Assembly: GCA_035570235.1 (NCBI GenBank)
Contig: DATMML010000005.1
Coordinates: 1-64,000 of the forward strand
Source of the DNA: Vicinamibacteria bacterium
GTDB taxonomy: Bacteria; Acidobacteriota; Vicinamibacteria; Fen-336
Length of the DNA: 64,000 nt
Direction of reading: 5' to 3'
Part shown: positions 746 through 64,000 of the stretch, piece after piece
How positions within the stretch are numbered: position 1 is the stretch's first letter
How the letters are laid out: every line of letters starts with the position of its first letter
Translations under genes and position numbers: made by a program
Notes under the pieces: model-generated
Seen by the model: only the letters and a program-made list of their open reading frames with translations
What the model was told of the DNA's origin: nothing
The model's database searches: none

Positions 746-765
746 GTTTTCTTTAGGGAACATAG

Positions 766-777: not shown

Positions 778-880
778 CCGTCTATACGTGTAGTTTTTGG
801 GCCTTTCGTGCCCGACCGGAGAGTGTCCGCCGCCGGGCCGCTCATACGTCGAACACTCGAAGGCAAAGGAGCTTCCCCCG

Positions 881-33980: not shown

Positions 33981-34106
33981 GAATCACCTCGCGGATATTA
34001 TGCACCCCTGGTAAGAGCCGCTGTCGCCCTGCTGCCAAACCGTAGATCCAGTGGACACCCGGCGCCCCAGGAACGTAATCTCAGTGTCAGAAACGGGAGG
34101 AACGCG

Positions 34107-43132: not shown

Positions 43133-43215
43133 GTGATTGCTCTCGAAAAGAGCTGGGAGTTCGTGCCCTGCAGAACGTCAGACCGAGTCTCCGCGTTGGC
43201 CTCAGTCTTGGTCTC

Positions 43216-46200: not shown

Positions 46201-49200
46201 GGCACGGTGGAGGGCACGGTCCGCGACATCCCCGGTCACCCCGTTCCCGGAGCCGTGGTCGTGGCCCTGAGCACGACCGATGCGCAGAGCGGGGGTACCG
46301 CCACCACGGATGGGCAGGGGCAATACGTCATTCCCGGAATCACCGTGGGCCCGGTGAGCGTGCGGGCCGCCAAGGGGACCTTCGTGGGCCGGGCCGCGGG
46401 GCGGGTGGACCGGGCGGGGACCGCCTCCGTCGTTGATGTGACGCTCAACACGGGATCGGTTCACGTCACGGGCACGGTGCTCCTCGTGCAGGGAACGGTC
46501 AGCTCCCCGCTTCCGGACGTCACCGTCGTCTACGGGGTCAGCGAGAACCCCTCATTGAACCCGACGCCGGTGGGGGTGACGAAGACCGCCGGGGACGGGA
46601 CCTACAGCCTCGATTCCATGCCCCCCGGATCTGTCGTGATCACCGCCTACAGCCAGTACGGAATCGTTGCCGTGGGCTTCGCGACCGTGGCCGGAGACCA
46701 GCTCACGGGGAAGAACCTCGTCTTCCAAGCCCAGGACCAGACCCTCTCCGGCACCGTCCAGGGTGTCGTACGCCTGCCCGATACGACACCCGCCCCGGGA
46801 GTCGTGGTGTCCATCGACGGCCGCGGCGTGCTGACGGACGCGACGGGGGCCTTCAGCATTCCCAACGCTCCCGTGAAGCCCAATGTGTCCCAGACCGTGT
46901 CCGCGGCCACGCAAGACGGGCTGCGTTCCGGATTTGCGACCTTCGTGCTCGGGTCGCCGAACCAGGTCGTGAGCGGGCTTGTCATCACCCTATCCGGCCT
47001 GGGCACGGCGAAGTTCACAGTCTTGGACCCCGCGGGGAAGCCCATTGCAAACCAGGAGCTCCGGACGCCCTGCGTCGACGTCTGCTGGTGCAGCGCCATG
47101 TCCACGGGCCCGGACGGGACCGTCACCTTTACGGGGGTCGGCCTCGGCGACTTCAACGTCAAGGCCATTCGTATGTCGGGCGGCGTGACGGACGTCGCCT
47201 ACGGGAAAGCCTCGATCAAGCGGGACGGCGACACCGGCTTCGGCGTCGTCCAATTCGCGGGCGCGGGGACGGTGACGGGCAAGGTCTTCAATCCTGACGG
47301 CACACCCTCCTTTGGCGCCTCCGTCGCCCTCTCTTCGCGGCACTTCTTCAACGATGGCCTGACCACCTGCGACCTGATCCAGGAGGTCTCGCATCGCTTC
47401 CAGACCGGGCCCGACGGGCTGTTCACCTTCACCGGCGTCAACGTCGGTCCGCTGGTGGCGTCCGCGAGTCAGCCCTTCTTCCCGACGGCGGTGGGGGTCA
47501 ACAGCACGCTCCTTCAGGACAGTCAGACCGTGACCTTGCCTCCCCTCCGGCTGGTCAACACCATTGCGGGGGTTCTCTCGGGAGCGGTCTTCCTACCTGA
47601 TGGCACGACCACGGCGGGAGCCGGGGTCCAGGTCACCGCCACCGGTCCCCTCCCCGACATTACGGTCACCACGGACGGGCAAGGTCAATACCACTTCGCG
47701 AAGATCCTCCCCGAGGGGCTCTACCAGGTGACGGTCAGCGACCCCGTCACGGGTGGGCTGGGTCGCGAGTCCGTCTACCTGGCCGCGGGCCAGGACACGA
47801 CCCACAACATGCGCCTCAAGGGAAGGGGCACGGTGACGGTCACGGTTGTGGATGGGGCGGGCAGTCCGGTGACTAGCGCCTTCGTTCGGGTCCGGGAGAC
47901 CGAATACCCGAATCGGGTCTACGAGGGGTCGATCGACGCCTCCAACCAGGGAGTGGCCACCTTCCCGAATGTCTTCGAGGGTCCGCTGAGCGTCGAGGCG
48001 TCGGACAGCTTCGGACGCGGCGGCCGCACGTCGGCCGTGCTGCCGCGGCCCGGCGGCACCACGATCAGCGTGCAGGTGAGCCTGACCGTCACCGGGACCG
48101 TTCAGGGCCACTTCTATATGCCCGACGGAGCAACCGTCATTCCCTTCGGGGTCGTCTCCCTCACCGCGGGCGGACGCACGATCGGCCAGGTCACGACCGC
48201 GGGGAGCGGGGACGTAGGATCCTTCTCGTTCTCCTTCGTCCCCGCGGGACCCGTGCGTCTGGACGCCCAGGATCCCCTGACCGGCCGGACCGGACTCGCG
48301 GTGGGGACGGTGGACAGCCAGGATCAGGTCGTTACCCTCAACGTCCTGGCCCAGGCTCTGGGCACGGTCACGGGGTCGGTCACGCAGAACGAGCAACCCG
48401 TCGCCTCCGTCAAGGTGGTGGTGGCGTCGGGAGCCTTCCAAGCCGTGACCTACAGCGACGGAACCGGGCAATACGTCATCAAAGGGGTGCCCGAAGGCCA
48501 CGTGGTCGTGACGGCGAGCTTCAGCGACGGCTCATTTTCCGGCACCGCCGCCGCCACCCTCACGGGCGAGGGCACCACGCTCACTGTGAACGTGGCCCTC
48601 CAGGGGTCCGGCCAGGTGACGGGGCAGGTCCTGAGCGCGGGCGGGGCGACCCCCGCCCCCACATCGCTGGTGTCGCTGCAGGTGAGCGGCAGCGCCAGCC
48701 TCACCACGACCACGGACGCCACCGGCAACTATCGCTTTGATCAGGTGCCCACGGGCCGGGCCAGCCTGACCGCGACCGTGCTGGGAAGCATCGACGAGGG
48801 GATGGCCACGGCCACCGTGCCCGCGGGGGGGGCGGTTCAGGTGCCGATCACCCTCAACGGGGTGGGGGTGTTGAGCGGGGTGGGGGTCGACTCGGCCGGC
48901 AACCCCGTGGACGGGACGTTGAAGATCACGGGCACGGGCTCCTTCCCTTACTTCTTCTACCTCATACTCTCCAAGGGAAGCGGGGGCACCTTCCAACTGC
49001 CCCAGGTCCTGGCTGGACCCTTCACAGCCGCGCTCACCTCCGTCTCCGCGGGGGGCGCCAACCTCTACGGCACCGCCTCGGAACGTGTGAGCCCGGGGCA
49101 GACGACTCAGCTGACGGTGGCTCTGCAGCCGACGGGGACCATCACGGGCAGCGTCCTCCGCCCCGACGGCAAGACCCCCGCATACGGAGCCTCCGTCACG

Positions 49201-52200
49201 GTTGATCTCGACCAGGGGCGCGGCTCCCTGACCACCCAGGCCCAGAGCGATGGCACCTTCGCCCTGAACGGCGTGCCCCTGGGGGCTTTCACCCTCCGCA
49301 TCAACGACCCCCTGACGAGCGGCCTCGGCCTGGTCCAGGGCCGCAGCCTGGACACGAACCTGCAGATCCTCAGCCTCGGCACCATCGTCCTGGACGACAC
49401 CCCCATCGCGGTCGTTTCCGTCTCTCCGTCCGATGGGGCGGCCCAGGTGGCGGTGGACCAGCCGGTGGTCATCGTCTTCTCGGAGCGCGTGCAGTCCTTC
49501 GCCGGCGTGACCGTGAGCAACGGGCCCGCTAACATCCCCTCCCAGGCCAGCCTGGCCGCGGACGGCGTGACCCTCACCCTCTCTCCCACCCCGAGCTGGC
49601 CCGACGAGAAGCAGCTCACCCTCACCATTCCCACGAGCGTGACCGACGTCCTTGGTCGGCCCCTGGCGCAGTTCGTCGTCACTCGGTTCCAGACCGTCGA
49701 CCTGACGCCCCCCTCCGTCTCCACTGTGGTTCCGGCGTCCGGGGCGATCCAGGTCGATCCCGCGGCCGTGCTTACCGTCTCCTTCAGCGAAGCGCTCTCT
49801 CCGACCCTCACGAACCTCTCCTCCCTCGTGACCCTGGGCGGGCCGGGGGGGCCGGTGGCCGGGACCACCGTCCTGGCTTCGTCAAACTCGGTGACCTTCA
49901 CCCCGGCAAGCCCCCTCGCCACGAACGTTCTCTACACCGTGACCGTGAACGGGTCCGTGGACCTGGCCGGAAATCTCCAGACCGTGCCCTTCGGCTCGAC
50001 CTTCGCCACCCTTGACACCATCCCGCCTACCCTGAGCGCCTCCTTCACGACGGCCACGGGCAGTGGGGCGCTCGTGAACGGCACTTTCCTCGGCTCGTCC
50101 CGACCCACCCTCGCCGTGACTCTTTTCGATGCCTTGAGCGGGGTGAACATGGGCACGGCCGGCCTCAGCCTGGACGGCAACGCCGTGCCCGCCGTCGTCC
50201 AGGGGAACTCCCTCGTCTTCACGCCTTCCTCCGGGCTGGCGGACGGCGTCCACACCCTGCAGGCTTCGGGAGCTGATCGGGCCGGCAACTCGGGCACGCT
50301 GAGCGTCAGTTTCGGGATCGACACCGTTCCTCCCTCTGCCGCCCAGATCACGGGTGTTGCCGAAGCCCAGGTGGTGCGGGGGACCATCACGCTGGGAGCG
50401 ACGGCGACGGACGCGGGCTCCGGGGTGGCGCGCATCGATATCTTGAGCGACGGCTTCCCCCTGCGGAGTCTCATCGCTCCATCCTTCTCGACGGCTCTGG
50501 ACACGACCACGCTCGTGGAAGGGATCCACGATCTGGCGGCGCGGGCGGTCGATGGGGCGGGTAACGTAGGTCCCCTCGGGCCCGACGTGCACATCATCGT
50601 GGACAACCAGCCCCTGACCCTGGTCATCACCTCGCCCCCCAACGGGGCACGGTTCCGCGACTCCGTGCTCGTGAAGGCGACGGTCTCGAAGTCAGTCGAC
50701 CACGTGGACTTCTCGGTCGGGTCCCAGACCCTCTCCGTGACGAGCGCGCCCTACCAGGCCAGCCTGAGCCTGGCCTCCCTCGCGGACGGGCCGGCCACCG
50801 TCACCGTCAAGGGCTTCGCCCCCGGCGGGGAAACCGCGACCGCCACCCTCACCGTGGTCGTGGTGAAGACACCGCCCCCCGCCCCCAACCCCGCCCTCAT
50901 CGACGCCGAGCCCCCGAGTGCGGGCGCGTCCCTGGTCTTCGGGCGGGCGGGTTCGGTTCAGGCCGCGATCACCGTGCAGATCACCAACACCGGCAACGGC
51001 GCCCTGGCCAGCGCGGGCGTCCAGTCCGACGGCTCCTTCAGCGCCACCATCGCCGCCGCCGCCGATGACACGCTCTCCCTCATCGCCGTCGACGATGTGG
51101 GGAACCGGAGCGCGGCCACCCTGGTGGTTGTGCGCCGGACCCCCTCCCTGCCTCCCTCCAACGGGACCACGTCGCTCACCTACCTGGGAATCCTGGTCGA
51201 TCGGGTGGGCCCGGGCCCGGCTGCGCTGACCCCGGACGGGGCGCTGGACGCCGTCTTCACCCTGAGTCTGTCCATCGGCCAGGGAGTGACCCGCCAGCTG
51301 TCCTTCATCGACCTCGCGGGACCCCTCACCCGCAGCACGCGTCCGCAGGTGGGGTCGGTTCTGGGTGTGGCTGCGGACGTGGGCGCCCCGCTGCTCAACG
51401 GCCCCGACGGCCAGGTCAGCTTCCCGGTGACGACGGGCGCCACCCTGACCCTCTTCGCTTCCGATTTCGGCTTGATCCAGCCCGGCGCCACCTACACCGT
51501 GACCGCCGGCTTCGCGGACGGCTCCAACTTCGTGGGCAGCTTCACGATCGTGGCTCCGCAAGACAAGCCCCAGATCGCGCACTCCATGACCCTCTCCGCC
51601 AGCCCCACCACCGTGGCCGTGCCCGCGGGCGCGCCGGCCACGACCACCCTGACCATCACGAACATCCGCGACATCGACGGCACGCTCCTCCTCGACGGGG
51701 CCAAGATCGCGGTGGCGGTTGCGGACATGGCCTCCACGGATCCCCGGGCCAATCCCTTCCGCTCCGCGGGGGGGGCGATCGTGGACGGAGTGCCGGCCGC
51801 CAACAACACCAACTTCCAGGTCTTCACCATCAGCGGGGGGACGGTGACCGCGACCTATTCGAGCGCTTCCGTGACCCCCGCCCCCGTCACGGGCGCCCTC
51901 GCCCTCGTCCAGATCCAGGCCGCGGACACGGCGGGCAACGTGCTGGGAACGCACGCGGTGGGCACCCTCGACCTCAACCTCCGGCCCGCGGCCGATCGGG
52001 CCATCGTCTCCCCTTCACCCTCGTCCCTCTACGCCGATCGCGTGGACCGCCGGAGCCAGGTGACAGTCAGCGTCCGGGACGCGGCGGGCAATCCCCTGCC
52101 CGACGGGACGCCCGTTGTCCTCACCGCCGCCGACTTGGGATCCTTGAACCCCGACAGCAGCTATGTCCGCTCGGCGGGGGGCGCGGTGCTGGGAGGGCAG

Positions 52201-54456
52201 CCCTCGCCCAGCGGTGGCTCCTACCAGGTGTTCACGGTTACGGGCGGGACGATACGGTGCCAGTACTCCGACGCGAGCCTCGCCTTTGGGGCGGTCAGGG
52301 TCTCCCCCGCCATCATCCAAGTGCTCCCGGCCACGAGCACGGGAGCCGTGGCCGACAACCATACGATCGGCACCGCCCAGATCACCCTGGTCGGCGCCGA
52401 CATCGCGGACGTGGAGGTCTCGAGCCCGAGCGTCGCCCTCTCCTCCCCGGCCCGCCCCGTCTCCGTCGTCATCCGTCAGCTCCGCGACGCCCGCGCAAAT
52501 CTCATCCCCGACGGAGCCACCGTCCTCATCAGCGCCAACGACTTAGCCACCATCACTTTTGACGGGAGCGCCTATGTCCGATCGCTGGGGGGGGCGATCG
52601 TGGACGGGGTGGCATCGCCCTCCGGGCAGGGCTTCAAGGTGTTCTCCCTTTCCCAGGGGCAGGCCCTCGCCACCTACAGCTCCGATGGGGCCTCGATTGG
52701 TCCCGGCCAGGTCGGCACCGTCAACCTCCAGGTCGAGATGGGGGACCCGAGCGGCACCCTCCTCGACAACCACGCGCTGGCCGTCGCTCCCCTGAGCCTG
52801 GTCGGGCCGGCCAACGCCGTGGGATCCGCCACCCCACCGTCGGTCTTGGCGGAAGGCGGAGTCCACACGGCCACGGTTGTGTTCACTCCCGTCCTCGATG
52901 CCTACGGCAACCCCCTCCCCGACGGATCGAAGGTGGCCGCGACCGTGCAGGACCTAGCCGCGGTCACCGAGAACGGTTGCTGCAATATCCGCTCCGCGGG
53001 CGGCCAGATCCTGGGGGGGGACGCCTCGCCCAGCGGGTCGGCCTACAAGGCGCTCACCATCCAGGGGGGCAAGGTCACCTTCACCTACGCCGACCAGAAC
53101 GTGACCGCCGGCCCCGGAGAGGTGAAGCAGGCCAACGCCAGCCTGCTGGAGGCGGGCAGCGACGGCAGCGTTCTCAGCACCCGCGCCGTGGGCGTGGTCC
53201 CGATCGCCTTGGCCGGCGTGACCTCGGGCACGATGGCGGCGAGCCCGGGCTATGTCCACGCCGACGACCTCGACAACCGGACCTCGGTGACCCTGTCCAA
53301 CATCCGGGACGCCAACGGTCAGCCCGTGCCCGATGGGACGCTGCTGGCTTTCACGGCCGCGGACCAGGGGTCGGTCACCCAGAACGGCTGTTGCTATATC
53401 CGCTCCGCGGGTGGCGTGATTGTGGGCGGGACGCCCGCTTCCTTCGGAGCACAGTACAAGCTCTTCCCCGTCACGAGCGGGCAGGTGGTGCTGCAGTACT
53501 CGGCCCAGGGAGTGGCGGCGGGCAGCGCGGAGCAGAAGACGGCCACTGTCCAGGCCCTCACGGTCACGCCCGCGGGGTCCTTCATCTCCAACCTGGTGGT
53601 GGCCACCGCGTCCATTGCGCTCGTGGGTCCGACGTCGGCGAACGTGGCCGCGAACCCGCCCGACGTGTTCGCGGACGGGGGGGCGCATCTCTCGCAGATC
53701 ACCCTGAGCGCCCTCGTCGACACGGGGGGAACGCCGATTCCCGACGGGGCCAAGGTCGGACTCACGGCGGCCGACATCGCCGCCGCCACCGAGGACGGCT
53801 GCTGCTATGTCCGCTCCGCGGGTGGTCAGATCCTGACCGGGGGCACCACGCCCGGGGACGGAGCCCCCGCTTCCAACGACGCGCGCTTCGGCGTGTTCAC
53901 GGTGGCGGGAGGCCGCGTGCAGGCCGCTTACTCGGACCAGGGCCTCGCGCTGGGGGTCAACGAGACTCGGGTGGCCTCGGTCGCGGTGGTGCCCGTGGCG
54001 GGCGATACGAACGGCATCGTGACGAACCGGGCCTTCGGCGTCGGGACCATTAACCTCCGCGGGACGAGCTCGACCATGGGCTCCGGTCCCCCCACGCTTC
54101 CCTTGAGCGGCGGTCAGGGCACGATCACGTTCTCCGGCATCAAGGACTCCGCGGGCAACACGGTGCCGGACGGCACCCTGGTGGTCGTCTCCGCCGCCGA
54201 TATTGCCACCGTCGATCCCACGAGCAACGGCTACAACCGCTCCACCGGGGGGACCATTCTCGGCGGCGGCGTCTCTCCCACCGGACTCCAGTACCGGGTG
54301 TTCTCGGTCCTGAACGGGAGCATCACCGTCACCTACTCTACGGCCGGAGCCTCGTCGGGTACGGCCGAGATCCAGGTGGCCCCCGCCGGCCGGGACGGCG
54401 CCATCATCGGGTTCTACAGCCTCGTCGGTGGAGTCTGGAACATCACAGTTCAGTGA
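43216..54456 (+). CDS. Giant secreted multi-repeat protein 1
   Basis: About 3746 residues from the first start codon in frame (TTG 43216), but that start cuts off the signal peptide. The same frame upstream encodes RVGLSLGLLAWAIPAWAQA, and one extra A in the run 43146-43149 would link it to GTG 43133 (MIALEKELGVRALQ). Architecture: beta-rich N-terminal region (about 1-890); about 13 carboxypeptidase-regulatory-like repeats (about 900-2060); two SbsA-type Ig domains with PSDGAAQVAVDQPV and PASGAIQVDPAAVL (about 2063-2265); further Ig-like domains; and seven tandem repeats of about 135 residues with an RSAGG core (2790-3746). No LPxTG, autotransporter or RTX motif is visible. Probably a cell-surface filament or adhesin. 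The next giant gene starts 14 bp later. Confidence 0.9.
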   Translation: MAWAIPAWAQAPLRKIGEADLSILGVSATVDPLNPSVPKNVASAVRLVVTAGGTPLTSADVPRFLGAGFQVAAELSGPGLPGTITIPQAGSPPLGDPLLLPLPPLAIGGDYLLSNPRIVVGGRSVLDAVPQQITVHVIDQILVTSVQTRPLTLDEIKARGIVLDSSAFLGFEFTLGLMLESTPVNFTFPVVFNNQGVSVPLPITPPPDPTRQGVSLSLPPLPTIVPVLLTGKDSSGQDIPLTLPGGAPVQIPGVLVIPGNVGYLKQFFAADLYVANGAPAGSGLVVHSVTGTIHLPPGADGVVGTADDPLSLPATVNGPQPSTMPVRSLGPDGKPDVDTLNPGDQGQAEFLIRGEKEGYATIDFGIAAVLEGLPVGPVNVTGKASGGVLVRNPFFDMTFTVPSVVRRGEKFKLFTTITNIGQGLANALTVSLDSGALSGVLLLSDPSQVIATLKPGNAQTLEFDFQSQKTGQVVASYLHLNTQDGSTGELKFTLGIGERGVPLSPDTLVLPASVDALPTDVVDAAMRVLGQAWSVANAPSGTLPKGVIRTSKTVVFQKGLALAEAGLRVTLGENLSDALRDIGVDFYGGPSLDPGFDQILRQTDAGRSLALALGNELVGAVIQAGGPLPYERSFAQLQASGPDFISFAVGSGTSGAPVDVAFADGALRQSLSGTTAAVPRSDIPGGVIVPLGPPATAPLLGLLTAPSASPYTLRIAGRGAGPVDISVTLPRGDGTLVRGSILGVAFTAGLSAKLAIDLLQPDSLVLAVDTAGDGTFATAMPLVTEVISPQGPQLLSANVIGPETLDGASAFGLDVALLFDRIVDDTASSALGTYQVPSNSVVAAKRQLSGRIVFMSLAAPEGPYVLSSVSESGILDPRGTLGPALTQPLRSLLQDAGAVVSGRVFNADGTAVTSGVVTYLNQADMSCIFPFEKPLAAVSLNGQGRYQLRYVRQDNCGSPFMILTQDPSSGAVRQVSSFVRAAGERIVLDLALEGRGTVEGTVRDIPGHPVPGAVVVALSTTDAQSGGTATTDGQGQYVIPGITVGPVSVRAAKGTFVGRAAGRVDRAGTASVVDVTLNTGSVHVTGTVLLVQGTVSSPLPDVTVVYGVSENPSLNPTPVGVTKTAGDGTYSLDSMPPGSVVITAYSQYGIVAVGFATVAGDQLTGKNLVFQAQDQTLSGTVQGVVRLPDTTPAPGVVVSIDGRGVLTDATGAFSIPNAPVKPNVSQTVSAATQDGLRSGFATFVLGSPNQVVSGLVITLSGLGTAKFTVLDPAGKPIANQELRTPCVDVCWCSAMSTGPDGTVTFTGVGLGDFNVKAIRMSGGVTDVAYGKASIKRDGDTGFGVVQFAGAGTVTGKVFNPDGTPSFGASVALSSRHFFNDGLTTCDLIQEVSHRFQTGPDGLFTFTGVNVGPLVASASQPFFPTAVGVNSTLLQDSQTVTLPPLRLVNTIAGVLSGAVFLPDGTTTAGAGVQVTATGPLPDITVTTDGQGQYHFAKILPEGLYQVTVSDPVTGGLGRESVYLAAGQDTTHNMRLKGRGTVTVTVVDGAGSPVTSAFVRVRETEYPNRVYEGSIDASNQGVATFPNVFEGPLSVEASDSFGRGGRTSAVLPRPGGTTISVQVSLTVTGTVQGHFYMPDGATVIPFGVVSLTAGGRTIGQVTTAGSGDVGSFSFSFVPAGPVRLDAQDPLTGRTGLAVGTVDSQDQVVTLNVLAQALGTVTGSVTQNEQPVASVKVVVASGAFQAVTYSDGTGQYVIKGVPEGHVVVTASFSDGSFSGTAAATLTGEGTTLTVNVALQGSGQVTGQVLSAGGATPAPTSLVSLQVSGSASLTTTTDATGNYRFDQVPTGRASLTATVLGSIDEGMATATVPAGGAVQVPITLNGVGVLSGVGVDSAGNPVDGTLKITGTGSFPYFFYLILSKGSGGTFQLPQVLAGPFTAALTSVSAGGANLYGTASERVSPGQTTQLTVALQPTGTITGSVLRPDGKTPAYGASVTVDLDQGRGSLTTQAQSDGTFALNGVPLGAFTLRINDPLTSGLGLVQGRSLDTNLQILSLGTIVLDDTPIAVVSVSPSDGAAQVAVDQPVVIVFSERVQSFAGVTVSNGPANIPSQASLAADGVTLTLSPTPSWPDEKQLTLTIPTSVTDVLGRPLAQFVVTRFQTVDLTPPSVSTVVPASGAIQVDPAAVLTVSFSEALSPTLTNLSSLVTLGGPGGPVAGTTVLASSNSVTFTPASPLATNVLYTVTVNGSVDLAGNLQTVPFGSTFATLDTIPPTLSASFTTATGSGALVNGTFLGSSRPTLAVTLFDALSGVNMGTAGLSLDGNAVPAVVQGNSLVFTPSSGLADGVHTLQASGADRAGNSGTLSVSFGIDTVPPSAAQITGVAEAQVVRGTITLGATATDAGSGVARIDILSDGFPLRSLIAPSFSTALDTTTLVEGIHDLAARAVDGAGNVGPLGPDVHIIVDNQPLTLVITSPPNGARFRDSVLVKATVSKSVDHVDFSVGSQTLSVTSAPYQASLSLASLADGPATVTVKGFAPGGETATATLTVVVVKTPPPAPNPALIDAEPPSAGASLVFGRAGSVQAAITVQITNTGNGALASAGVQSDGSFSATIAAAADDTLSLIAVDDVGNRSAATLVVVRRTPSLPPSNGTTSLTYLGILVDRVGPGPAALTPDGALDAVFTLSLSIGQGVTRQLSFIDLAGPLTRSTRPQVGSVLGVAADVGAPLLNGPDGQVSFPVTTGATLTLFASDFGLIQPGATYTVTAGFADGSNFVGSFTIVAPQDKPQIAHSMTLSASPTTVAVPAGAPATTTLTITNIRDIDGTLLLDGAKIAVAVADMASTDPRANPFRSAGGAIVDGVPAANNTNFQVFTISGGTVTATYSSASVTPAPVTGALALVQIQAADTAGNVLGTHAVGTLDLNLRPAADRAIVSPSPSSLYADRVDRRSQVTVSVRDAAGNPLPDGTPVVLTAADLGSLNPDSSYVRSAGGAVLGGQPSPSGGSYQVFTVTGGTIRCQYSDASLAFGAVRVSPAIIQVLPATSTGAVADNHTIGTAQITLVGADIADVEVSSPSVALSSPARPVSVVIRQLRDARANLIPDGATVLISANDLATITFDGSAYVRSLGGAIVDGVASPSGQGFKVFSLSQGQALATYSSDGASIGPGQVGTVNLQVEMGDPSGTLLDNHALAVAPLSLVGPANAVGSATPPSVLAEGGVHTATVVFTPVLDAYGNPLPDGSKVAATVQDLAAVTENGCCNIRSAGGQILGGDASPSGSAYKALTIQGGKVTFTYADQNVTAGPGEVKQANASLLEAGSDGSVLSTRAVGVVPIALAGVTSGTMAASPGYVHADDLDNRTSVTLSNIRDANGQPVPDGTLLAFTAADQGSVTQNGCCYIRSAGGVIVGGTPASFGAQYKLFPVTSGQVVLQYSAQGVAAGSAEQKTATVQALTVTPAGSFISNLVVATASIALVGPTSANVAANPPDVFADGGAHLSQITLSALVDTGGTPIPDGAKVGLTAADIAAATEDGCCYVRSAGGQILTGGTTPGDGAPASNDARFGVFTVAGGRVQAAYSDQGLALGVNETRVASVAVVPVAGDTNGIVTNRAFGVGTINLRGTSSTMGSGPPTLPLSGGQGTITFSGIKDSAGNTVPDGTLVVVSAADIATVDPTSNGYNRSTGGTILGGGVSPTGLQYRVFSVLNGSITVTYSTAGASSGTAEIQVAPAGRDGAIIGFYSLVGGVWNITVQ
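45916..49400 (+). repeat. About 13 carboxypeptidase-regulatory-like repeats
   Basis: Within giant protein 1, units of about 85-100 residues begin with a pattern such as VSGRVFNADGT, VTGKVFNPDGT, LSGAVFLPDGT or ITGSVLRPDGK, continue with TDGQGQY or TDATGNYRF and end with a G-x-V/L-x-V-x-A strand. Starts fall near 45916, 46207, 46467, 46744, 47005, 47272, 47575, 47833, 48088, 48367, 48613, 48871 and 49141. This is the CarboxypepD_reg/Cna-B-like sandwich used as a rigid spacer in surface proteins. Confidence 0.85.
51586..54456 (+). repeat. Seven tandem 135-aa RSAGG repeats
   Basis: Units begin near 51586, 51990, 52396, 52806, 53218, 53629 and 54061. Each has a strand pair (such as SVTLSNIRDANGQPVPDGT), an AADxA/G stretch, the core x-x-RSAGG-x-I/V-x-GG, a Y/F-x-V-F strand and a closing T/A-x-I-x-L-x-G segment. 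Variants of the core are FRSAGG, YVRSAGG, YVRSLGG and NRSTGG. Copies 4, 5 and 6 carry GCC before the core. The period is about 405-430 bp. Confidence 0.9.
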
Positions 54457-54470: not shown

Positions 54471-57400
54471 ATGAGCGAACGCAGACAAGACGGCTCGCGG
54501 CGTCACCCACCGCTTCGGCGCGCGACCGCGCTCGCTTTGTCATGGATCTTCTCTGCCGGCCCGGTCTCAGCGATACCGCCCCCCAACGTGATTCCCACGG
54601 CCCCGGGGGTCGCCTACCGCGCGCCTTCGGCTTCCCTCCCTCACGCGGTCGACTCCGGGCCGCAGGTGGCCTCCACGCCGTCGCCATTCGGCCTCCTCCG
54701 CGAGACCATCGCACCGCGGGATCCCCCCGACCGTGGGGGCCGGGGTGAGGGGCGTCCCGATATCCGGGACGTGGGGACGCGGGAGGAGGATCACCGGGAC
54801 GGGGAGGGCGACGGGACGTGCGAGCCGGCGGAGGGTGGGGACGAGGGGCGCGGTTCCCCCGGTGAAGGCGAGCACGGGGAGCCAGGAGTCGTGCCCTCGC
54901 CCTCCCCGGGAGGCTTTGGCATCTTCGGACCCCAGAAGTACCTCCGGACCCCTGGGGAGAGGAACCGCTACACCACGACCCTCAGCGTTCCCCCTTGGGT
55001 GGTGGGGCCCTACAACCTGCACGTGCAGAACGGGGAAGCCGACGGGACTCACCGCCTGACCGCGGCCTGGATCCAGGTCAACGGGGTCTGCGTGGCGACC
55101 CCCCGGGACTTCGGGAACCGGGGGGAGGATGACCACGACAAGGCAGTGGCCAGCTTCGACCGGACCGTCACCCTCACTCCGCAGACCATCCTCAAGGTCA
55201 CCCTGGCCAGCGAGCCCGGCTCGTACCTCTACCTGACTCTCTCTGGCCAGAACGCCGACCACACCCCCCCGCGCGTGACGGTCGCCCAGCCGGCCCCCGG
55301 GTCCACGATCGGAACGGCCACGCCCCGGATCGACGTCCAGTATCAGGACCTCCTGGGGGTGGGAGAGCCGGTCGCTTCGGGCGTGGACGTCTCGACGCTT
55401 CAGGTGCTCCTGGACGGGGTCGACCGCACCTCCCTCTTCACCGTTCGCTCGAGCGACGCCTCCCTCGACCTGCCTCCCGGTCTGACCCTGGCTGAGGGTA
55501 TCCACGCGGTCACGGCCTCGATCAAGGATCGCGCCGGGAACCTAGGAACCACCACGGCCTCCTTCACCGTGAGCCTGAGCTCCCCCCAGATCCAGATCCT
55601 GACCCCCGCCGCCGGCGCCTACTTGAACACTGCGACCCCCCTGGTCCAGATCCGGTACCAGGACAACTTCGCCCTGGATCTCTCCTCTTTCAAGGTGCTG
55701 GTCAACGGCACCGATGAGACGGCCGCCTTCACCAAGACGGCCGGGGGGGCCACGGGGACGCCCAGCCTTCCCACGGGCGGGAACCTGATCGTGGCCCAGA
55801 TCAAGGACTTGGCCGGGAACGCCTCCTCCGCCCAGGTCTCCTTCATCGTGGACACCCAGCCTCCCACCCTCTCCATCGTGCACCCCGCGGCAGGCTCCTA
55901 CCTCTCGATGTCCACCGTGACCGTGAGCCTTCAGTACGCGGACGACCAGGCCCTCGATCTCACGAGCCTGAAGGTCCTCCTCGACTCCTCCCCCGTCGTC
56001 ATGGGCATCCCCGGGCCCAGCGGGGCCACGGGGAGCGCGGGGCCGCTCGCGGACGGCCCGCACGCCCTCACCGCCTCCATCGCAGACCGGGCGGGCAACC
56101 GCACCACGGCGGGCGCCTCGTTCGTCGTGGACACCACCCCCCCCGCGATCGCGGTCACGCGGCCGCTGCCGGGCTCGATCCTGAACTCGACGAACACCGG
56201 GGCGTCGGTCACGTTCTCAGATGCGGATGGGGTCGTCCTGTCGAGCTTCAAGGCGACCCTGAACGGCGCCGACGTGACGTCCTCGTTCACGGCGATGCCC
56301 GGCTCCGCCAGCGGCGCTCTCTCCGGTCTTCCCCAGGGCCCGAACACGCTTCAGGCCCAGATCTCCGACGTGGCGGGGAATGTGGGTACGGCCGGCTCCA
56401 CTTTCACCGTGGACTCGGTGCCTCCCACGGGTACGTTCGTGGCTCCGCAGCCTCTGGTGAACACGGCCCTCCCCATCATCCAGGCCACCTACGCCGACCC
56501 CGCGCCCGGGACGGGCGTCAATCCCGGAAGCGTCCAGGTCTTCCTGGACGGCGTCCTGCAGGGCGCAAATTTCACGGCCTCCACGAGCGCGGTGGTGGGG
56601 ACGCCAGCCTCCCCCCTCGCGGAGGGAGCCCACACCGTCCTCGTGACCTTCGCGGACGGCGCGGGCAACCCGGGCCAGGCGGGACCGACCACCTTCACCG
56701 TGGACACCCAGCCTCCCACCGCCGCCTTCCGGTCGCCCGTAAACGATTCCTTCCTCAACAATCCCACCCCGACGATCGAGCTCGACTACTCGGACGCGAC
56801 GAGCGGGGTCGCGACCGGCTCCGTGCACGTCTACCTCCAGCCCCCGCCCACGCCTTCGGGTCCCAGCCCGGAGGTCGAGATCACGTCGTACCTGCAGGTG
56901 GGCCCCGCGAGCGCGTTGGGGAGCATTCCGGCCTCGGCTCCCCTCGCCGATGGCTCTTATCAGCTGCGGGCGGCGCTCTCCGACCTGGCCCAGAACGCCG
57001 CCCCGCCCGTGGTCATCCAGTTCGAGATCGACACCACGCCCCCCCAAATTGCGATCACCCAGCCCGTCGGCGGGAGCTACACCAACGCCCTCACCACCGC
57101 GGTGTCCGGCCCCGTGTCCGACGACACTCCGGTCACGGTGCTGGTGGAGGGCATCGCGGCTCCGGTCTCGGGAGGAGCCTTCACGGCGCCTGCCGTGCCC
57201 CTGGGCGCGGGCCCCTTGGTCACCCTCCACGCCACCGCCACCGACGCCGCCGGCAACACCCAGACCGCCACCGTGACCCTGAACGTGGACCGGACGCCTC
57301 CCACCGTCCAGATCACGAGTCCCGTTTCGGGCGCGTACGTAAGGGGCCCGGCCGTTCCCGTGACGGGAACGGTCAGCGCGGCCGCCCCCCTGGCCCAGGT

Positions 57401-60400
57401 CATCGTCAATGGAACCCCGGCCCCCATCGCGGGCGGGGCCTTCAGCGCCCTGGTCCCGTCCCCCGACGGCCCGCTCACGATCGTGGCCAACGCCCAGGAC
57501 GCGGCGGGGAACGTGGGCACGGCCCAGGTTGGGGTGATCGTCGACTCCATCCCCCCCGTGGTGACCATCGCCTCCCCGCCGGAGGGGACGATCACCAACG
57601 CGGCGAGCCTGCACGTCACGGGGACGGTCACCGACGCCTCCCCGGTGACCCTCCAATTCGCAGGTAGCCCGGTGCCCCTGGCCGGGAACGCGTTCGCCTT
57701 TGACGTAGCGCTTCCGCCGAACGACGGGGGCACGGCCCTGACCTTCACGGCCACGGACGCGGCGGGGAACATGAGCACGGCGACCCTTCACGTCACGGTC
57801 GACCGGACGCCTCCCGCCCTGACCATCGCCGCGCCCGCGGAGGGAGCCTACGTGGGGCGCTTCCCCGTACTTCTCCAGGGAACGGTCCAGGATCTGACCG
57901 CGACCACGGTCGTGGTGGATGGCATGGCCGCCACCGTGGCCCAGGGCAGCTGGCAGGCCCAAGCGGCCGCCCTTCCCGAGGGCCCCCACGCTTTCTCCGT
58001 GGTGGCCACGGACGCGGCCGGGAACCAGACGACGCAGGTCCGGAACATCACCGTCGACACCACTCCCCCCGCGATCGCGATCACGCAGCCGCTCGGGGGG
58101 ACCTTTACCAACGCCCAGACGATCACGGTGTCGGGGACGGTGTCCGACGACACGCCGGTCACGGTGCAAGTGGAGGGACTGGCCGCCTCGGTCTCGGGCG
58201 GAGCCTTCAACGCATCCTCCGTGCCCTTGGGCCCGGGTCCCCAGGTCACCCTCCACGCGACCGCCACCGACGCCGCCGGCAATACCCAGACCGCGACCGT
58301 GACCTTGAACGTGGATCGGACCCCTCCCAGCGTCCAGATCACGAGCCCCTTGGCGGGGGCCTATCTCAAGGGCCCGGTCCTCACCGTCTCGGGGATGGTG
58401 ACGGCCGGGGCCCCCGTGACCCTGGACGTGAACGGCCAGCCCGCCACCCTCAGCGGGAGTTCCTTCACGGCCCTGGTCCCGGTGACGGACGGCTCGGTGA
58501 CGCTCCTGGGCACGGCCCACGATGCGGCCGGCAACGTAGGCACGGCCCAAATCACGGTGAATGTCGACTCCGTGCCCCCCGTGATCGCGGTGAGCTCGCC
58601 CGCCGACGGCTCCTTCACCAACCGGGCCACCGCCCACCTCGTGGGGACGGTGACCGACGCCTCGCCCACGACCCTCACCATAGGGGGCATGCCGGTCGGT
58701 CTGTCCGGTACCGCCTTCGCCCAGGACGTCGGCCTTCCCCCCACGGACGGTCCGACCACGATCACCTTGATCGCGCAGGATGCGGCGGGCAACGTGGCCA
58801 CCCTCGTCCTCCACGTCACCGTCGACCGCACGCCTCCCACCCTCCAGATCGCGAGCCCGGCCGAGGGGGCCATCCTGGGCGCGGTTCCCGTGGTCGTCCA
58901 GGGGCTCGTTCAGGACGCCAGCCCCACGACCGTGACCGTCGACGGTATCCCCGCCGCCCTCACCCAGCAGGCCTGGCAGGCCTCGTTCCCTGGCCTCGGA
59001 CAAGGCCCCCACTCCTTCTCCGTGGTGGCCACGGACGCAGCCGGAAACCAGACCAGCCTCGTGCGGAACGTCTTCATCGACCTCCTTCCCGTGACCATCG
59101 CCATCACGAGCCCCGCCCCCGGCGCCCTCACCAACGCCACGAGCGTGGCCGTCACGGGAACCGTCCAGGCGGGGAGCGCGGTTTTTGTCCTCGTGAACGG
59201 GATCCCCGCGAGCGTGTCCGCGGCGGGACAGTTCTCGGCCGTGGTGCCTCTGGTCGAGGGCAACAATACCCTGCAGGCCGTGGGCACGAGCGCCTCCGGA
59301 CGGTCCGCTTCCGCGAGCGTGGTCGTGACCCGGGACACGACCCCGCCCTCCATCACGCTCTCGGCGCCGCCCACTCTCTCCTTCAACCAGACCGTCCAGG
59401 TCACGGCCAGCGTGATGGACGACACGGGGGTGGCCCAGGTCGTCCTCAAGCTCAACGGAGCCGTCCTGGCCACCTTCATCGCGCCGCCTTATGTGGCTCC
59501 CTTGGCCGTCCCCACGGGGGCCAAGGGCGGCGACCTCCTCACCTTGGAAGCGGATGCCACCGACCGCGCGGGTAATTCCGCCTCTGTCACCCAGACCGTG
59601 AAGGTGATCGGGAACGGCGTGATCGTGGGGCAGGTCCTCTCCGACGCCACGGGCCTCACCCTGCCGGGGGCCACCGTCCAGATGGTCTCCGGTGGCTCCT
59701 CCGTCCAGGCGACGACGGACGAGACGGGCCGTTACTCACTCCCCACGGGCAGCCCGGAGGCCGTCCTCGTCGCGGGCAGCAGCGGCATGACGAGCGTCGT
59801 GCGCGACATCCCGGTCCAGGCCGGAGTGGGGACGCTCCCCGTGGACGCACGCCTCACTCCCCTGGCCCCGCCGGTCACGATCGCCGCCGCGGGGGGAAGC
59901 GTTTCCGCCGGACAGGTGACCCTAGCCGTTCCCCCCGGCCCGGGGACGGTCACCCTGACGCCCCTTTCGGCCCAGGGCCTGCCCGGCCTCCTCCCCATGG
60001 GCTACAGCCCGCTGGTCGCGTTCGACCTCCGGACGGACACCGGGGCGGGGGCGCCTCTGAGCGCGACCATCACCGGCCTCACGCAGGACGTCCTGCACCT
60101 CACGGTCTACCACCCCGAGGTGCACGCTTGGTTGATGGTGAGTCCCAACCTCCAGGCGGCCACCGACGGCTCCCTCACCGTGTCCCTGCCCGAGATCAAT
60201 CCTTACGCCATCGTCGCGGCCGACCCCGATCCCGCCCTGGTGATCCCCGCCGCGACTCAGCCCCTCACCGGCCTGCCGCCCCTGGATGTTCCGCCCACCT
60301 CCGTGGCTACGACGGTCGTAACGCCCCCCACGATCCCTCCCACCGGAGGCACGGCCCAGGTGGCTCTGGCCGTCCAGTCTCCGACCCCGCTGCCCTCGGG

Positions 60401-63400
60401 AACCGTGGTCCAGGCCCAGGTGACGGAGACCTTCACCCTGGCCACGGGCGAGGCGGCCTCGGAAGAGACCCGTCTCGAGGACATCGTTCTCTTCCAGAAG
60501 CCGGCGCCGAGCGGGGCCGTCCTGGCTGCGACCCTGCCCGCCACGCCTTCCCGGACCTTCTCCGACACCGAGCTGACGGCGGGACACGTCCACCTCGACA
60601 TCGTGGCGGGACGGGAAGGGGTTCGGGGCTCAACGGGCGGTAGCCAGCCCGTCACCATCCAGGCGACGGGGGCTCAGCTCGTCGTGCCGGGGGGCGCCCT
60701 GACCCAGGACACCGCCATAGCGCTCGAGCCGCAGGCGAGTCTCTCCAGCTTCCTGCCTTCCGCCTCGGGGCTCCAGCCCTTGACGGAGGTGGTGGTGGAC
60801 ACCTCGGGGGCGACACTGATGCTCCCCGCCCAGCTGTCGGTGACCTCGCCGGGAGGCGTGGCCTCGGGGGACAACCTCCTCATCGCCCGCGTGGACCGGG
60901 TCTTGGATATCCCCAGGCTGGTGGTCGTGGGCCTGGGCCAGCTGAACGGCAGCGAGATCGTCACCCAGGCCTATCCCGGCCTGCCCGGGATCACGGTCGG
61001 GGGGCGGTACGTGTTCTACCGGGTTGGCTCTCCCCTGGGCTTTGTGGCCGGCCTGACCACCTCCAGCGGCGTCCTCGTCCCGTCGGTCGTCGTCGGGACG
61101 GATCAACTCCCCTTCATCGGGCTCTCCGGCGCTGACGGCAGCTACATCGTGGCCGCGCTCGCTGGTCCCGTCCAGCTCACGGCCACAGTGCCCCGGACCT
61201 CGCTCCTGGGCACGGCCACGGCCGCGGTCTCGGCCGGCCAGACTGCCGCCCAGAACATCGCTCTTGCGGGGACGGTCACTGCGGCCACGGTGTCCCCGGC
61301 CGACGGGTCGACGGGAGTGGACACCGGTGTCGAGGTCCAGATCACGTCTTCGGCCCCTCTGGACCTCAAAACCGTCACCCCGGCCAACATCCTGCTCCTC
61401 AAGGGCACCCAAGCCGTGAACGTGAGGCTCGTCCTCTCGGGAAGCGGCAAGACCCTCGCCGTCATCCCCGCCGCCGCCCTCGATTTCTCGGCCACCTACA
61501 CGCTCCAGGGCTCGGGGCTGGCCGACGTCTTCGGGGGCCTCGTCTCGGTACCCTCGGTCTCGTTCCGCACCAAGGACAACGTGCCTCCCGTCTACAACAC
61601 GGGTGCCCTCACCTTCTCCTTCCCCGACGCAAACGGGCTCGTGACCATCTCCGCCCCCGCGCAGACCTTCCCCCCCGGCACCACCATCCTCATCATCGAT
61701 TCCGGCAACGGGATCGTGCTCTCCCTCACCGCTGGGAACTCGGGTGAGGTCGCGGCCCACCCGATGCCCGCCTCCATCAACGACCAGATGATGGTGACGA
61801 TCACGGATCCTTTCGGGAACGTCACCACCTTCAACCGCAGCCAGTTCGTGGACCCCGCCACGGGAAAGACGGCCATCGGGGCCGGGGGAGGCGTGGTCCA
61901 GGCCGCCGACGGCAGCGGCGTCGAGCTGCGCATTCCCGAGGGAGCCCTGGACAAGGCGGTCACCCTCCGGATCACCGCCTTTGGTCCCGACCTCTTCCCC
62001 GATCGCCCCGAGCTGGGGGGTGCCAACTTCGGGAGCGGGATCAAGATCGAGTCCGCCGACCAGCCGGTCTTCAAGAAGGAAGTCAAGCTGGCCTTCCCGC
62101 TTCCCGACTTCACGACCGTGCCCCCGGACCAGCAGCCGGCCAAACCCGAGGACGCCTTCTACTACGTCTATCGCAAGATAGACCGTCCCGACGGCAAGGT
62201 GGCCTTCCAGACCCTGGATTGGGCCACCGTGGAGGGAAGCGGGCCGACGGCCAAGGTGGTGATGGCCTCGTACCCCATGAGCGGGTACGTGGACAGCATC
62301 GGCCAGTACGTGCCCTCGACGGGGGCGGCCCTGGGGGTGGGGCTCGCCTACGCCATCTGTGTTTGGACCATCAACCGCCTGCTCCCGGGCACGCCCGTGG
62401 GCGGCGTGATCACGGGAAGCGTCCTTCGCCCCTTCTTCCCCCCGGGGTCGACCGCTCCTTCTTATCAGGGTGTCCCCGGACTGGTCGTCCGCGCCACCAC
62501 CCTCAACGGCGCCTCCTTCGATCCCACCAAGTCGGAGACGGTCGCCATCACCCAGGGCGACGGCCGCTACACGATGTTCGACGACCACTTCACGGGCGGG
62601 GTGGTGGAGGTCCACACCGTCGATCCGAGCGACGGGCTCGACCACATGGGGACGGTGTTCGCGGTCCAGGAAACCGACTCCAAGATCGACACCGACCCCG
62701 GGCTCGCCCACCTGAAGCTGTTCGGTCTCTTCAAGAACCTGGCCACGGCCGACATCCTCCTGCCCGAGGCCGCGGCCAAGGCGCCCCCGCCCCCCTTCGC
62801 CATCCACGTGATGACCGAGGACGCGAGCGGCCGCCACGACGTGACCGGCCTCATCGTCGCGGGCACGCCGCTGCGCATCGGGTTCCGGAGCGTGGACGCC
62901 CAGGGCAATCTCGCCATCGTCAACAGCGCCACCATCAACGGGGCGACCAAGACGGTGGTGCCGGAGTCGGTGCCCCCGGCCGTGCTGCCCATGAACTTCC
63001 TGCTGCAGGACGGCAGCAGCAGCGACGGGACGTTCACACCCAGCCAGGCCGGAAGCTACACCGTCGCCGCCAGCGCGATATCGCCCTTTGGAGGGGTCGA
63101 GAACGCCACCTACACCTTCCGGGTCATCGCGGCGGGGGGAAAGGTCGGTAGCACGCCCGGCGTCCCCCCCGCGGTCATCGACGCCCAGACCGCGCCCGCG
63201 AACGGCGCGGCCGGCGTGCCGGTGGGGGTCTTCCCGGCCGTCTTCTTCACCGAGCCGGTCAAGAAGATCCTGGGGAACGTTAAGCTCGTCGCCCCCGATG
63301 GCACCCAGGTGCCCTGCAACATCACGGGGATCGGGCTCGACGCTTCCGGGAACCCCATCCCGGTGCTGGTGACGGGTGCGGACGTGGTGGTCACCTCCGT

Positions 63401-64000
63401 GACCTTGGAGCCTCTTGCGGGCCTCGAGTTCAACGCCACTTACACGATCCTGGTCACGGACGGAGTCATCGACCTCGCCACGGACGCCCAGGGCCAGCCC
63501 GCCCCCCTGAAGCTGTCTCCCGCCCCCTACCAAAGCACGTTTACCACCTTCGGACCGGAGGCGGTGGGAGGCTCGGGGAGCTACCAGGTAGCGGGCCTGG
63601 CCGTGGTGGGGGACCGTGCCTACGTGGCCCGCACCCTTTATCCGGGAGGGGTGGGTGTCTCCCAGTCCGGCGAGCTGCACATCTTCGACACCGCGGACCC
63701 CGTCGCCCCCCGCGAGGTTCTCGATCCCCCCACCCGGTTCAACTACCCGCCCCGCGATCTGGCCGCGGGCTCCGACGGGAACGGAACCCGCACCGTAGTC
63801 ATCGCCGCCTCGCCGCGGACCTATTTCCAGAGCAACGGCGAGATCGTGGTCTACACGGAGCTTGTCAGCACCCCCGCCAACCTCTTCGTCTACGACGTGA
63901 CCACCGACCAGCCGCAGTGGGTCGGGGCGGCCAGCCTCACCAGCAACATCCTCGACGGGTATCCAAACCGCGTCGTCCTCCGGGGGAACAGCATCTACGT
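54471..64000 (+). CDS. Giant secreted Ig-repeat protein 2 (3' end beyond window)
   Basis: Reading from ATG 54471, the frame has no stop through base 64000: at least 3176 codons, with the end outside the window. Signal peptide: RRATALALSWIFSAGPVSA. A charged linker (residues 90-140) leads to a beta domain, then about 16 Ig-like domains of 85-100 residues (263 to about 1710), each starting with a variant of VDTTPPxIxIxxPxxG and ending in DAAGN. Then come a carboxypeptidase-regulatory-like unit (about 1713), ZU5-like pieces with PEGALDKAVTLRI, two SbsA-type domains (VSPADGSTGVDTGV; QTAPANGAAGVPVG) and, from about 3037, VVGDRAYVA with LHIFDTADPVAPREV, typical of LVIVD propeller blades. It follows giant gene 1 by 14 bp. 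No strong ribosome site is visible. Confidence 0.88.
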   Translation, partial: MSERRQDGSRRHPPLRRATALALSWIFSAGPVSAIPPPNVIPTAPGVAYRAPSASLPHAVDSGPQVASTPSPFGLLRETIAPRDPPDRGGRGEGRPDIRDVGTREEDHRDGEGDGTCEPAEGGDEGRGSPGEGEHGEPGVVPSPSPGGFGIFGPQKYLRTPGERNRYTTTLSVPPWVVGPYNLHVQNGEADGTHRLTAAWIQVNGVCVATPRDFGNRGEDDHDKAVASFDRTVTLTPQTILKVTLASEPGSYLYLTLSGQNADHTPPRVTVAQPAPGSTIGTATPRIDVQYQDLLGVGEPVASGVDVSTLQVLLDGVDRTSLFTVRSSDASLDLPPGLTLAEGIHAVTASIKDRAGNLGTTTASFTVSLSSPQIQILTPAAGAYLNTATPLVQIRYQDNFALDLSSFKVLVNGTDETAAFTKTAGGATGTPSLPTGGNLIVAQIKDLAGNASSAQVSFIVDTQPPTLSIVHPAAGSYLSMSTVTVSLQYADDQALDLTSLKVLLDSSPVVMGIPGPSGATGSAGPLADGPHALTASIADRAGNRTTAGASFVVDTTPPAIAVTRPLPGSILNSTNTGASVTFSDADGVVLSSFKATLNGADVTSSFTAMPGSASGALSGLPQGPNTLQAQISDVAGNVGTAGSTFTVDSVPPTGTFVAPQPLVNTALPIIQATYADPAPGTGVNPGSVQVFLDGVLQGANFTASTSAVVGTPASPLAEGAHTVLVTFADGAGNPGQAGPTTFTVDTQPPTAAFRSPVNDSFLNNPTPTIELDYSDATSGVATGSVHVYLQPPPTPSGPSPEVEITSYLQVGPASALGSIPASAPLADGSYQLRAALSDLAQNAAPPVVIQFEIDTTPPQIAITQPVGGSYTNALTTAVSGPVSDDTPVTVLVEGIAAPVSGGAFTAPAVPLGAGPLVTLHATATDAAGNTQTATVTLNVDRTPPTVQITSPVSGAYVRGPAVPVTGTVSAAAPLAQVIVNGTPAPIAGGAFSALVPSPDGPLTIVANAQDAAGNVGTAQVGVIVDSIPPVVTIASPPEGTITNAASLHVTGTVTDASPVTLQFAGSPVPLAGNAFAFDVALPPNDGGTALTFTATDAAGNMSTATLHVTVDRTPPALTIAAPAEGAYVGRFPVLLQGTVQDLTATTVVVDGMAATVAQGSWQAQAAALPEGPHAFSVVATDAAGNQTTQVRNITVDTTPPAIAITQPLGGTFTNAQTITVSGTVSDDTPVTVQVEGLAASVSGGAFNASSVPLGPGPQVTLHATATDAAGNTQTATVTLNVDRTPPSVQITSPLAGAYLKGPVLTVSGMVTAGAPVTLDVNGQPATLSGSSFTALVPVTDGSVTLLGTAHDAAGNVGTAQITVNVDSVPPVIAVSSPADGSFTNRATAHLVGTVTDASPTTLTIGGMPVGLSGTAFAQDVGLPPTDGPTTITLIAQDAAGNVATLVLHVTVDRTPPTLQIASPAEGAILGAVPVVVQGLVQDASPTTVTVDGIPAALTQQAWQASFPGLGQGPHSFSVVATDAAGNQTSLVRNVFIDLLPVTIAITSPAPGALTNATSVAVTGTVQAGSAVFVLVNGIPASVSAAGQFSAVVPLVEGNNTLQAVGTSASGRSASASVVVTRDTTPPSITLSAPPTLSFNQTVQVTASVMDDTGVAQVVLKLNGAVLATFIAPPYVAPLAVPTGAKGGDLLTLEADATDRAGNSASVTQTVKVIGNGVIVGQVLSDATGLTLPGATVQMVSGGSSVQATTDETGRYSLPTGSPEAVLVAGSSGMTSVVRDIPVQAGVGTLPVDARLTPLAPPVTIAAAGGSVSAGQVTLAVPPGPGTVTLTPLSAQGLPGLLPMGYSPLVAFDLRTDTGAGAPLSATITGLTQDVLHLTVYHPEVHAWLMVSPNLQAATDGSLTVSLPEINPYAIVAADPDPALVIPAATQPLTGLPPLDVPPTSVATTVVTPPTIPPTGGTAQVALAVQSPTPLPSGTVVQAQVTETFTLATGEAASEETRLEDIVLFQKPAPSGAVLAATLPATPSRTFSDTELTAGHVHLDIVAGREGVRGSTGGSQPVTIQATGAQLVVPGGALTQDTAIALEPQASLSSFLPSASGLQPLTEVVVDTSGATLMLPAQLSVTSPGGVASGDNLLIARVDRVLDIPRLVVVGLGQLNGSEIVTQAYPGLPGITVGGRYVFYRVGSPLGFVAGLTTSSGVLVPSVVVGTDQLPFIGLSGADGSYIVAALAGPVQLTATVPRTSLLGTATAAVSAGQTAAQNIALAGTVTAATVSPADGSTGVDTGVEVQITSSAPLDLKTVTPANILLLKGTQAVNVRLVLSGSGKTLAVIPAAALDFSATYTLQGSGLADVFGGLVSVPSVSFRTKDNVPPVYNTGALTFSFPDANGLVTISAPAQTFPPGTTILIIDSGNGIVLSLTAGNSGEVAAHPMPASINDQMMVTITDPFGNVTTFNRSQFVDPATGKTAIGAGGGVVQAADGSGVELRIPEGALDKAVTLRITAFGPDLFPDRPELGGANFGSGIKIESADQPVFKKEVKLAFPLPDFTTVPPDQQPAKPEDAFYYVYRKIDRPDGKVAFQTLDWATVEGSGPTAKVVMASYPMSGYVDSIGQYVPSTGAALGVGLAYAICVWTINRLLPGTPVGGVITGSVLRPFFPPGSTAPSYQGVPGLVVRATTLNGASFDPTKSETVAITQGDGRYTMFDDHFTGGVVEVHTVDPSDGLDHMGTVFAVQETDSKIDTDPGLAHLKLFGLFKNLATADILLPEAAAKAPPPPFAIHVMTEDASGRHDVTGLIVAGTPLRIGFRSVDAQGNLAIVNSATINGATKTVVPESVPPAVLPMNFLLQDGSSSDGTFTPSQAGSYTVAASAISPFGGVENATYTFRVIAAGGKVGSTPGVPPAVIDAQTAPANGAAGVPVGVFPAVFFTEPVKKILGNVKLVAPDGTQVPCNITGIGLDASGNPIPVLVTGADVVVTSVTLEPLAGLEFNATYTILVTDGVIDLATDAQGQPAPLKLSPAPYQSTFTTFGPEAVGGSGSYQVAGLAVVGDRAYVARTLYPGGVGVSQSGELHIFDTADPVAPREVLDPPTRFNYPPRDLAAGSDGNGTRTVVIAASPRTYFQSNGEIVVYTELVSTPANLFVYDVTTDQPQWVGAASLTSNILDGYPNRVVLRGNSIY
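57048..59096 (+). repeat. Tandem duplication of a four-Ig-domain block
   Basis: Bases 57048-58073 (1026 bp) and 58074-59096 (1023 bp) encode the same order of four Ig domains. Both begin IAITQP and both contain VSDDTPVTV, VSGGAF and the stretch VTLHATATDAAGNTQTATV; both end with FSVVATDAAGNQT. Domain 1 of each block is nearly identical, the other three less so, which fits duplication followed by uneven divergence or local gene conversion. Confidence 0.88.

Follow-up and report, generated by a model that had tools for sequence, protein, structure and literature searches.

A proposed giant two-gene surface system of Acidobacteriota in which a polymorphic-toxin-type backbone probably carries an intact phosphohydrolase

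A reading frame that leaves the analyzed DNA without closing raises three connected questions: where it ends, whether it or the long frames on the opposite strand are coding, and what its unseen C-terminus carries. Such a frame, denoted g, lies in a 64,000-nt stretch (the window, bases 1-64000 of the 69,712-base contig DATMML010000005.1) of a 5.7-Mb Vicinamibacteria genome assembled in 138 contigs. The translated window contains no stop codon in the plus-strand frame from ATG 54471 through base 64000, as a sequence-only reading of this DNA had stated. Extension of the contig past this point, which that reading had proposed as a check, placed the stop codon at 68565-68567. Translation from ATG 54471 yields a product of 4,698 aa, with a mass of 479 kDa and a calculated pI of 4.6; a start at the overlapping GTG 54453 would give 4,704 aa. 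Given that third-codon GC in this frame is 0.88 and that the protein aligns over more than 3,000 residues with open frames of other genomes, g is certainly a genuine coding gene, in agreement with the original claim; the accompanying remark that a gene caller requiring a stop codon would miss it applies only to callers that refuse open ends. The long minus-strand frames (Table 1), expected to be reported in its place, are in exact mirror phase to g (GC by codon position 0.905/0.51/0.656), such that the high-GC third position of g is their first position. In synonymous-codon shuffles of g (n = 200), the longest antisense frame averaged 1,030 aa, and the observed maximum of 1,273 aa was reached in 16% of the shuffles. 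Because shuffles that leave the protein unchanged yield similar lengths, the antisense frames need no genic explanation; mirror phase and shuffles rule them out as genes and bear out the preference for g. The genomes used for comparison throughout are largely metagenomic assemblies, and several relatives are truncated at contig ends.

Table 1. Features of the g-u locus, gene order in related genomes, and tails found behind the conserved backbone
Feature	Position or genome	Strand	Remarks
u, giant partner	43216..54456	+	3,746 aa from TTG 43216; directly upstream of g
GTGA overlap	54453..54456	+	u stop TGA 54454-54456 with alternative g start GTG 54453
g, in-window part	54471..64000	+	runs on to contig 68567
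g, predicted Sec signal peptide	54471..54575, residues 1-35	+	read by eye; ends in ATALALSWIFSAGPVSA, followed by IPPP
g, Ig-like array	55257..59660, residues ~263-1730	+	~15 modules; profile matches and linkers
g, CarboxypepD_reg-like module	59622..59819, residues 1718-1783	+	E 4.5e-5, under gathering cut-off
g, conserved backbone core	59820..63539, residues 1784-3023	+	~1,240 residues
g, beta-propeller, first part	63540..64000, from residue 3024 to ~3440	+	model match
g, propeller remainder	to residue ~3440, contig ~64790	+	beyond window
g, tail-exchange junction	residues 3428-3440	+	C-terminal edge of propeller
g, linker	residues 3441-4120	+	680 residues; beyond window
g, phosphohydrolase domain	residues 4121-4698, contig 66831-68564	+	beyond window
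ORF with membrane segments and weak HEAT-like repeats	contig 68734-69711		E 0.006; 166 bp downstream of g; truncated at contig end
Long antisense frame	60630..63680	-	codon-usage artefact, no gene
Long antisense frame	56217..59012	-	codon-usage artefact, no gene
u then g, adjacent	source genome, G030, G011, G115, G004, G042		
g then u, adjacent	G057, G058, G024, G050, G190, G090		
u-like then g-like, outside the class	G410, G224, G255, G232		
Tail: phosphohydrolase	source genome		PF01663
Tail: GDSL lipase	G008		E 7e-11
Tail: Big_1, Laminin_G_3 and helical end	G030		truncated at contig end
Tail: RHS with DUF6531	G014, Angelobacter MAG		RHS E 1e-91 and 3e-23
Tail: no known family	Terriglobia MAG		

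The N-terminal and central parts of g were found to be organized much as the sequence-only reading had described them. The signal peptide was recognized again, the Ig-like array was borne out, with about 15 modules against the 16 or so proposed, and the propeller indeed begins near the edge of the window. The Ig-like modules are joined by D-x-x-PP linkers and match the Pfam families Glucodextran_B, Big_13, Big_3_3, and Big_7 and the NCBIfam family Ca_tandemer. The core includes two Big_5 modules and ZU5-like segments (E 0.012, under the cut-off), and none of the eight cysteines read in the protein sequence lies within a CxH motif. Structural modelling of the propeller gave a mean pLDDT of 68, with the best values in the blades, and a pTM of 0.71; many solved propellers match this model (best E 1e-8), with TM scores of 0.6-0.7 for WD40 targets. 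The C-terminus differs from what had been suggested: neither RHS/YD repeats nor an RHS core was found in g with Pfam and NCBIfam profiles, and neither a membrane anchor nor a sorting signal was found at its end; a PF01663 domain is present instead. In relatives of g, RHS/YD repeats are indeed present at the corresponding junction.

The gene directly upstream, denoted u, encodes a second giant protein with seven CarboxypepD_reg domains, Big_5, Big_7, and adhesin-like repeats. No ATG, GTG, or TTG start in positions 43120-43240 gives u a full signal peptide, and translation probably starts at CTG 43168, preceded by GGGAG, which would yield a signal peptide ending in LSLGLLAWAIPAWA, followed by QAP. 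With ATG 54471 of g located 14 bp past the u stop, the two genes form a unit of about 25 kb (43168 or 43216 to 68567). The earlier description as a two-gene operon of more than 20 kb thus stands as far as the unit and its size are concerned, and adjacency, overlap, and conservation are the grounds for the term operon. Among 193 genomes of the class, 24 encode g-like cores, 26 encode u-like proteins, and 16 encode both (Fisher p 2.7e-11, or 5e-13 for a stricter set, both indicative only because the genomes are related). The two genes are adjacent, in either order, in more than 10 Acidobacteriota genomes (Table 1), and in G008 they are on separate contigs. The C-terminal parts of u-like proteins vary too (loci L116, L119, and L115), with an RCC1 propeller and LamG, CarboxypepD_reg arrays, or chitobiase-type modules and without enzymes. 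Elsewhere in the window, two adjacent M16 peptidase genes (33588-37093) and a gene for a FecR/DUF6600 protein (39032-40921) were identified.

Six members of the g family, from the source genome, G030, G008, G014, a Terriglobia MAG, and an Angelobacter MAG, were compared with each other. The approximately 1,500 residues up to the propeller end align in all 15 pairs (E below 1e-100, 29-47% identity). Past the motif GG(V/I)RTAxL, the tails are dissimilar in 14 of the 15 pairs (E above 0.1), the sole exception being the two RHS tails of G014 and Angelobacter. A conserved backbone with sharp tail exchange at a single junction is therefore well supported by the sequence comparisons. The exchange is not universal, given that the nine best-sampled members of a more distant group keep one common tail of about 2,550 aa; two other distant members end in a subtilase (Peptidase_S8, 2.5e-24) and a cysteine protease (Peptidase_C70, 4e-27), respectively. 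Many backbones across the phylum end in RHS, with Rhs_assc_core detected in G240, G255, G220, G534, and G197. G240 additionally has a PT-HINT (pretoxin, 1e-18) domain with Tox-GHH (4e-9) behind it. The proteins from G255 and G220, two genomes of the same genus, share 94% identity over 5,230 aa and are unrelated over the last 255 aa or so. Behind each of these backbones lie a small ORF (of 150 and 251 aa) and an RHS-tip fragment. Such variable ends, small ORFs, and tip fragments are marks of polymorphic toxins (PMC3482391; Zhang et al. 2012). The Angelobacter tip behind the RHS core (L060:15914-16294) is His-rich (EHSMRDG, IHPLMDSTSFLH), has no Pfam match, and is possibly a metal-dependent hydrolase. 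In G476 (L143), the backbone apparently stops right past the propeller and lacks a tail.

The tail of g matches PF01663 with 54.9 bits (cut-off 23; E 1.4e-14). A profile built from this domain and two relatives retrieved PafA (3e-11), PhoK (8e-11), and nucleotide pyrophosphatase (NPP; 6e-9) among solved structures; a single-sequence phmmer search of the g domain against the same structures yielded no match. The two relatives, stand-alone or other-context proteins that are the closest free relatives of the g domain, are 26-28% identical to it. Eight residues, D4144, T4199, N4220, D4352, H4356, D4404, H4405, and H4629, are invariant in all three, and we take these to be the Thr nucleophile, the Asn that follows it by 21 residues, and the six ligands that bind metal in the PafA/PhoK/NPP branch. 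The assignment of the g tail as a complete phosphohydrolase of the type I phosphodiesterase/PafA/PhoK branch with an intact active site is thus well supported at the sequence level; the AlphaFold model of the domain (mean pLDDT 33.6) is too poor for fold comparison.

The origin of this domain can be approached through its distribution and base composition. Sequence search of the genome contigs returned no relatives of the enzyme domain, and none was present in 40 relatives. A survey of 396 genomes from the phylum gave only weak partial matches, and two of these turned out to be true relatives. Enzyme relatives elsewhere in the phylum are a 468-aa exported protein and part of a 1,165-aa protein, and the stand-alone ones sit in other classes, without the backbone. 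Across the 40 relatives and the 396 phylum genomes, a phosphohydrolase tail on the g backbone occurs in one genome only. Third-codon GC drops from 0.90-0.91 (stalk and core) through 0.86 (linker) to 0.79 (enzyme); past the junction it stays at 0.925 for the first 160 or so residues and then falls gradually. The decrease from core to enzyme is as expected if the enzyme arrived later, and the simplest reading of this single case is that the backbone gained a free enzyme. The source genome contains 44 PF01663 matches, most of them in ordinary proteins of 500-900 aa, that is, many enzymes of the sulfatase/phosphodiesterase type.

Like the Sec-dependent polymorphic toxin systems with RHS and beta-propeller regions (PMC3482391), g combines a signal peptide, a long repeat backbone, a propeller, and a hypervariable C-terminus, and several of its relatives bear the RHS core, HINT and Tox-GHH domains, tip exchange, small ORFs, and RHS-tip fragments. 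The combination of a conserved backbone with sharply different C-termini is present both between g and the five other members compared and between G255 and G220. Unlike these systems, g lacks RHS and a small toxin tip, is accompanied by an immunity gene candidate only, ends in a whole enzyme of more than 550 aa, and has a backbone made of a pair of giants. No toxin domain was recognized at the C-terminus of g with Pfam. We therefore suggest that g works like a polymorphic-toxin backbone and do not claim it as a member, because a toxin domain and a proven immunity gene are both missing.

Another parallel is found in the remark of PMC3482391 on large ZU5 surface proteins that combine adhesion modules with lipases or phosphodiesterases, for which degradation or remodelling of extracellular polymers is suggested there. 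The g protein resembles these in its size, adhesion modules, phosphodiesterase or lipase domain, and ZU5-like core segments, but its ZU5 match is under the cut-off and it lacks the CxH motif of autoprocessing; the remark itself describes neither a common backbone nor tail exchange. Bacterial teneurin-like proteins, with Acidobacteriota among their hosts (PMC13018210), share adhesion domains and a propeller with g and, in its relatives, a YD shell with a variable toxin end, whereas g itself has the propeller but no YD shell. The terminal domain has the Thr nucleophile, the Asn at position +21 from it, and the DxxxH, DH, and H ligands of type I phosphodiesterases/NPP and PafA/PhoK in the alkaline phosphatase superfamily, from which it differs in being fused to an adhesin backbone of 4,100 aa. 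Very long exported repeat proteins are likewise encoded by giant bacterial genes (PMC11573180; for Planctomycetes, PMC5177795); for g, in contrast, a conserved backbone and its defined junction account for the size.

We consider it probable that g is a backbone of the polymorphic-toxin type that carries an intact phosphohydrolase where relatives carry RHS and a toxin, within a two-giant surface system. Under this model, g would be the larger of two giant proteins that together form a surface system in Acidobacteriota, both giants would be exported by Sec, and u may associate with g, either as another fibre or as an anchor. The g backbone, consisting of the signal peptide, Ig-like stalk, core, and propeller, could serve as a display or delivery chassis at the cell surface, the stalk keeping the propeller and tail at a distance from the cell. 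The exchangeable module would sit directly behind the propeller, an RHS/YD shell with a polymorphic toxin in many relatives and a phosphohydrolase here, and the latter might cleave phosphate esters outside the cell, either in the envelopes of neighbours or in the surroundings. Neither an anchor nor a secretion apparatus was identified in this analysis.

The purpose of such an enzyme could be nutritional. If the tail is a stalk-displayed exoenzyme for nutrient scavenging or matrix remodelling, without antagonism, tail exchange would mirror ecology rather than conflict. Each of the GDSL, subtilase, C70, and phosphohydrolase tails is an enzyme of digestive type, and the closest solved relatives of the g domain are PafA and PhoK, both phosphate-scavenging phosphatases. 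The same direction is indicated by the remark cited above, in which ZU5 surface proteins bearing lipases and phosphodiesterases are portrayed as polymer degraders. The RHS, HINT, and Tox-GHH tails and the tips that are hypervariable within a genus nevertheless indicate conflict for part of the family at least, and we hold the explanation without antagonism to be a serious possibility that falls somewhat short of an even chance. Conversely, the phosphohydrolase could be a true antibacterial toxin delivered into neighbours, with the ORF behind g as a candidate immunity protein. Relatives bear RHS and a toxin at the same junction, and the downstream genes change with the tail, encoding the membrane/HEAT-like protein behind g, an exported HEAT protein behind the GDSL member, and a multi-membrane protein behind the Terriglobia member; immunity proteins with HEAT repeats have precedent (PMC3482391). 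However, the HEAT match of the ORF behind g is weak, the ORF is separated from g by a gap, and it runs into the contig end. No conserved immunity gene was found, the genes behind four g members being mutually dissimilar, and this variation would fit immunity genes but also unrelated neighbours. Beside g, no displaced cassette occurs before the contig ends. Moreover, the enzyme domain far exceeds the usual size of a toxin tip, and the existence of its relatives as exported stand-alone proteins suits scavenging too, making delivery as a toxin rather unlikely in our estimation.

Two further explanations would deprive the tail of a role or of its place. Ig-like adhesin domains make up most of the mass of g, as expected of an adhesin with a structural role whose enzyme-like end is inactive, but the retention of the nucleophile and of all metal ligands makes this very unlikely. 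Joining of backbone and tail by a metagenome assembly error, to which the lower third-codon GC of the tail (0.79 vs 0.91) and the single occurrence of the combination would correspond, appears still more improbable: the frame is uninterrupted across the junction and the 680-residue linker, GC remains high past the junction before its gradual fall, and other genomes bear other tails at the same place. A bolder version of our preferred reading, a backbone of polymorphic-toxin type with an exchanged enzyme tail, would hold that the paired-giant system is undescribed and phylum-wide, that its backbone, ending in a propeller, is a general socket for entire enzymes and RHS toxins alike, so that whole hydrolases (phosphohydrolase, lipase, proteases) are swapped between bacteria on a single display platform, and that it acts here as a contact weapon against phosphate esters in neighbours' envelopes; we regard this as unlikely.

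Neither the enzyme family nor RHS toxins nor C-terminal exchange is new. The literature searched yielded no report linking type I phosphodiesterases with polymorphic toxins or describing the g/u backbone, an absence that proves little; nor was a paired giant backbone of Acidobacteriota that uses a single junction for RHS toxins as well as whole enzymes found described there. Studies of polymorphic toxins usually deal with backbones that bear small toxin tips. Because one Acidobacteriota-wide paired backbone appears to accept RHS toxin shells or digestive enzymes at the same junction, the boundary between a weapon and a displayed exoenzyme becomes open to examination within one family. Acidobacteriota are abundant in soil, and their dealings with neighbours are little known. 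The junction also provides a simple annotation rule for giant genes that run off contigs.
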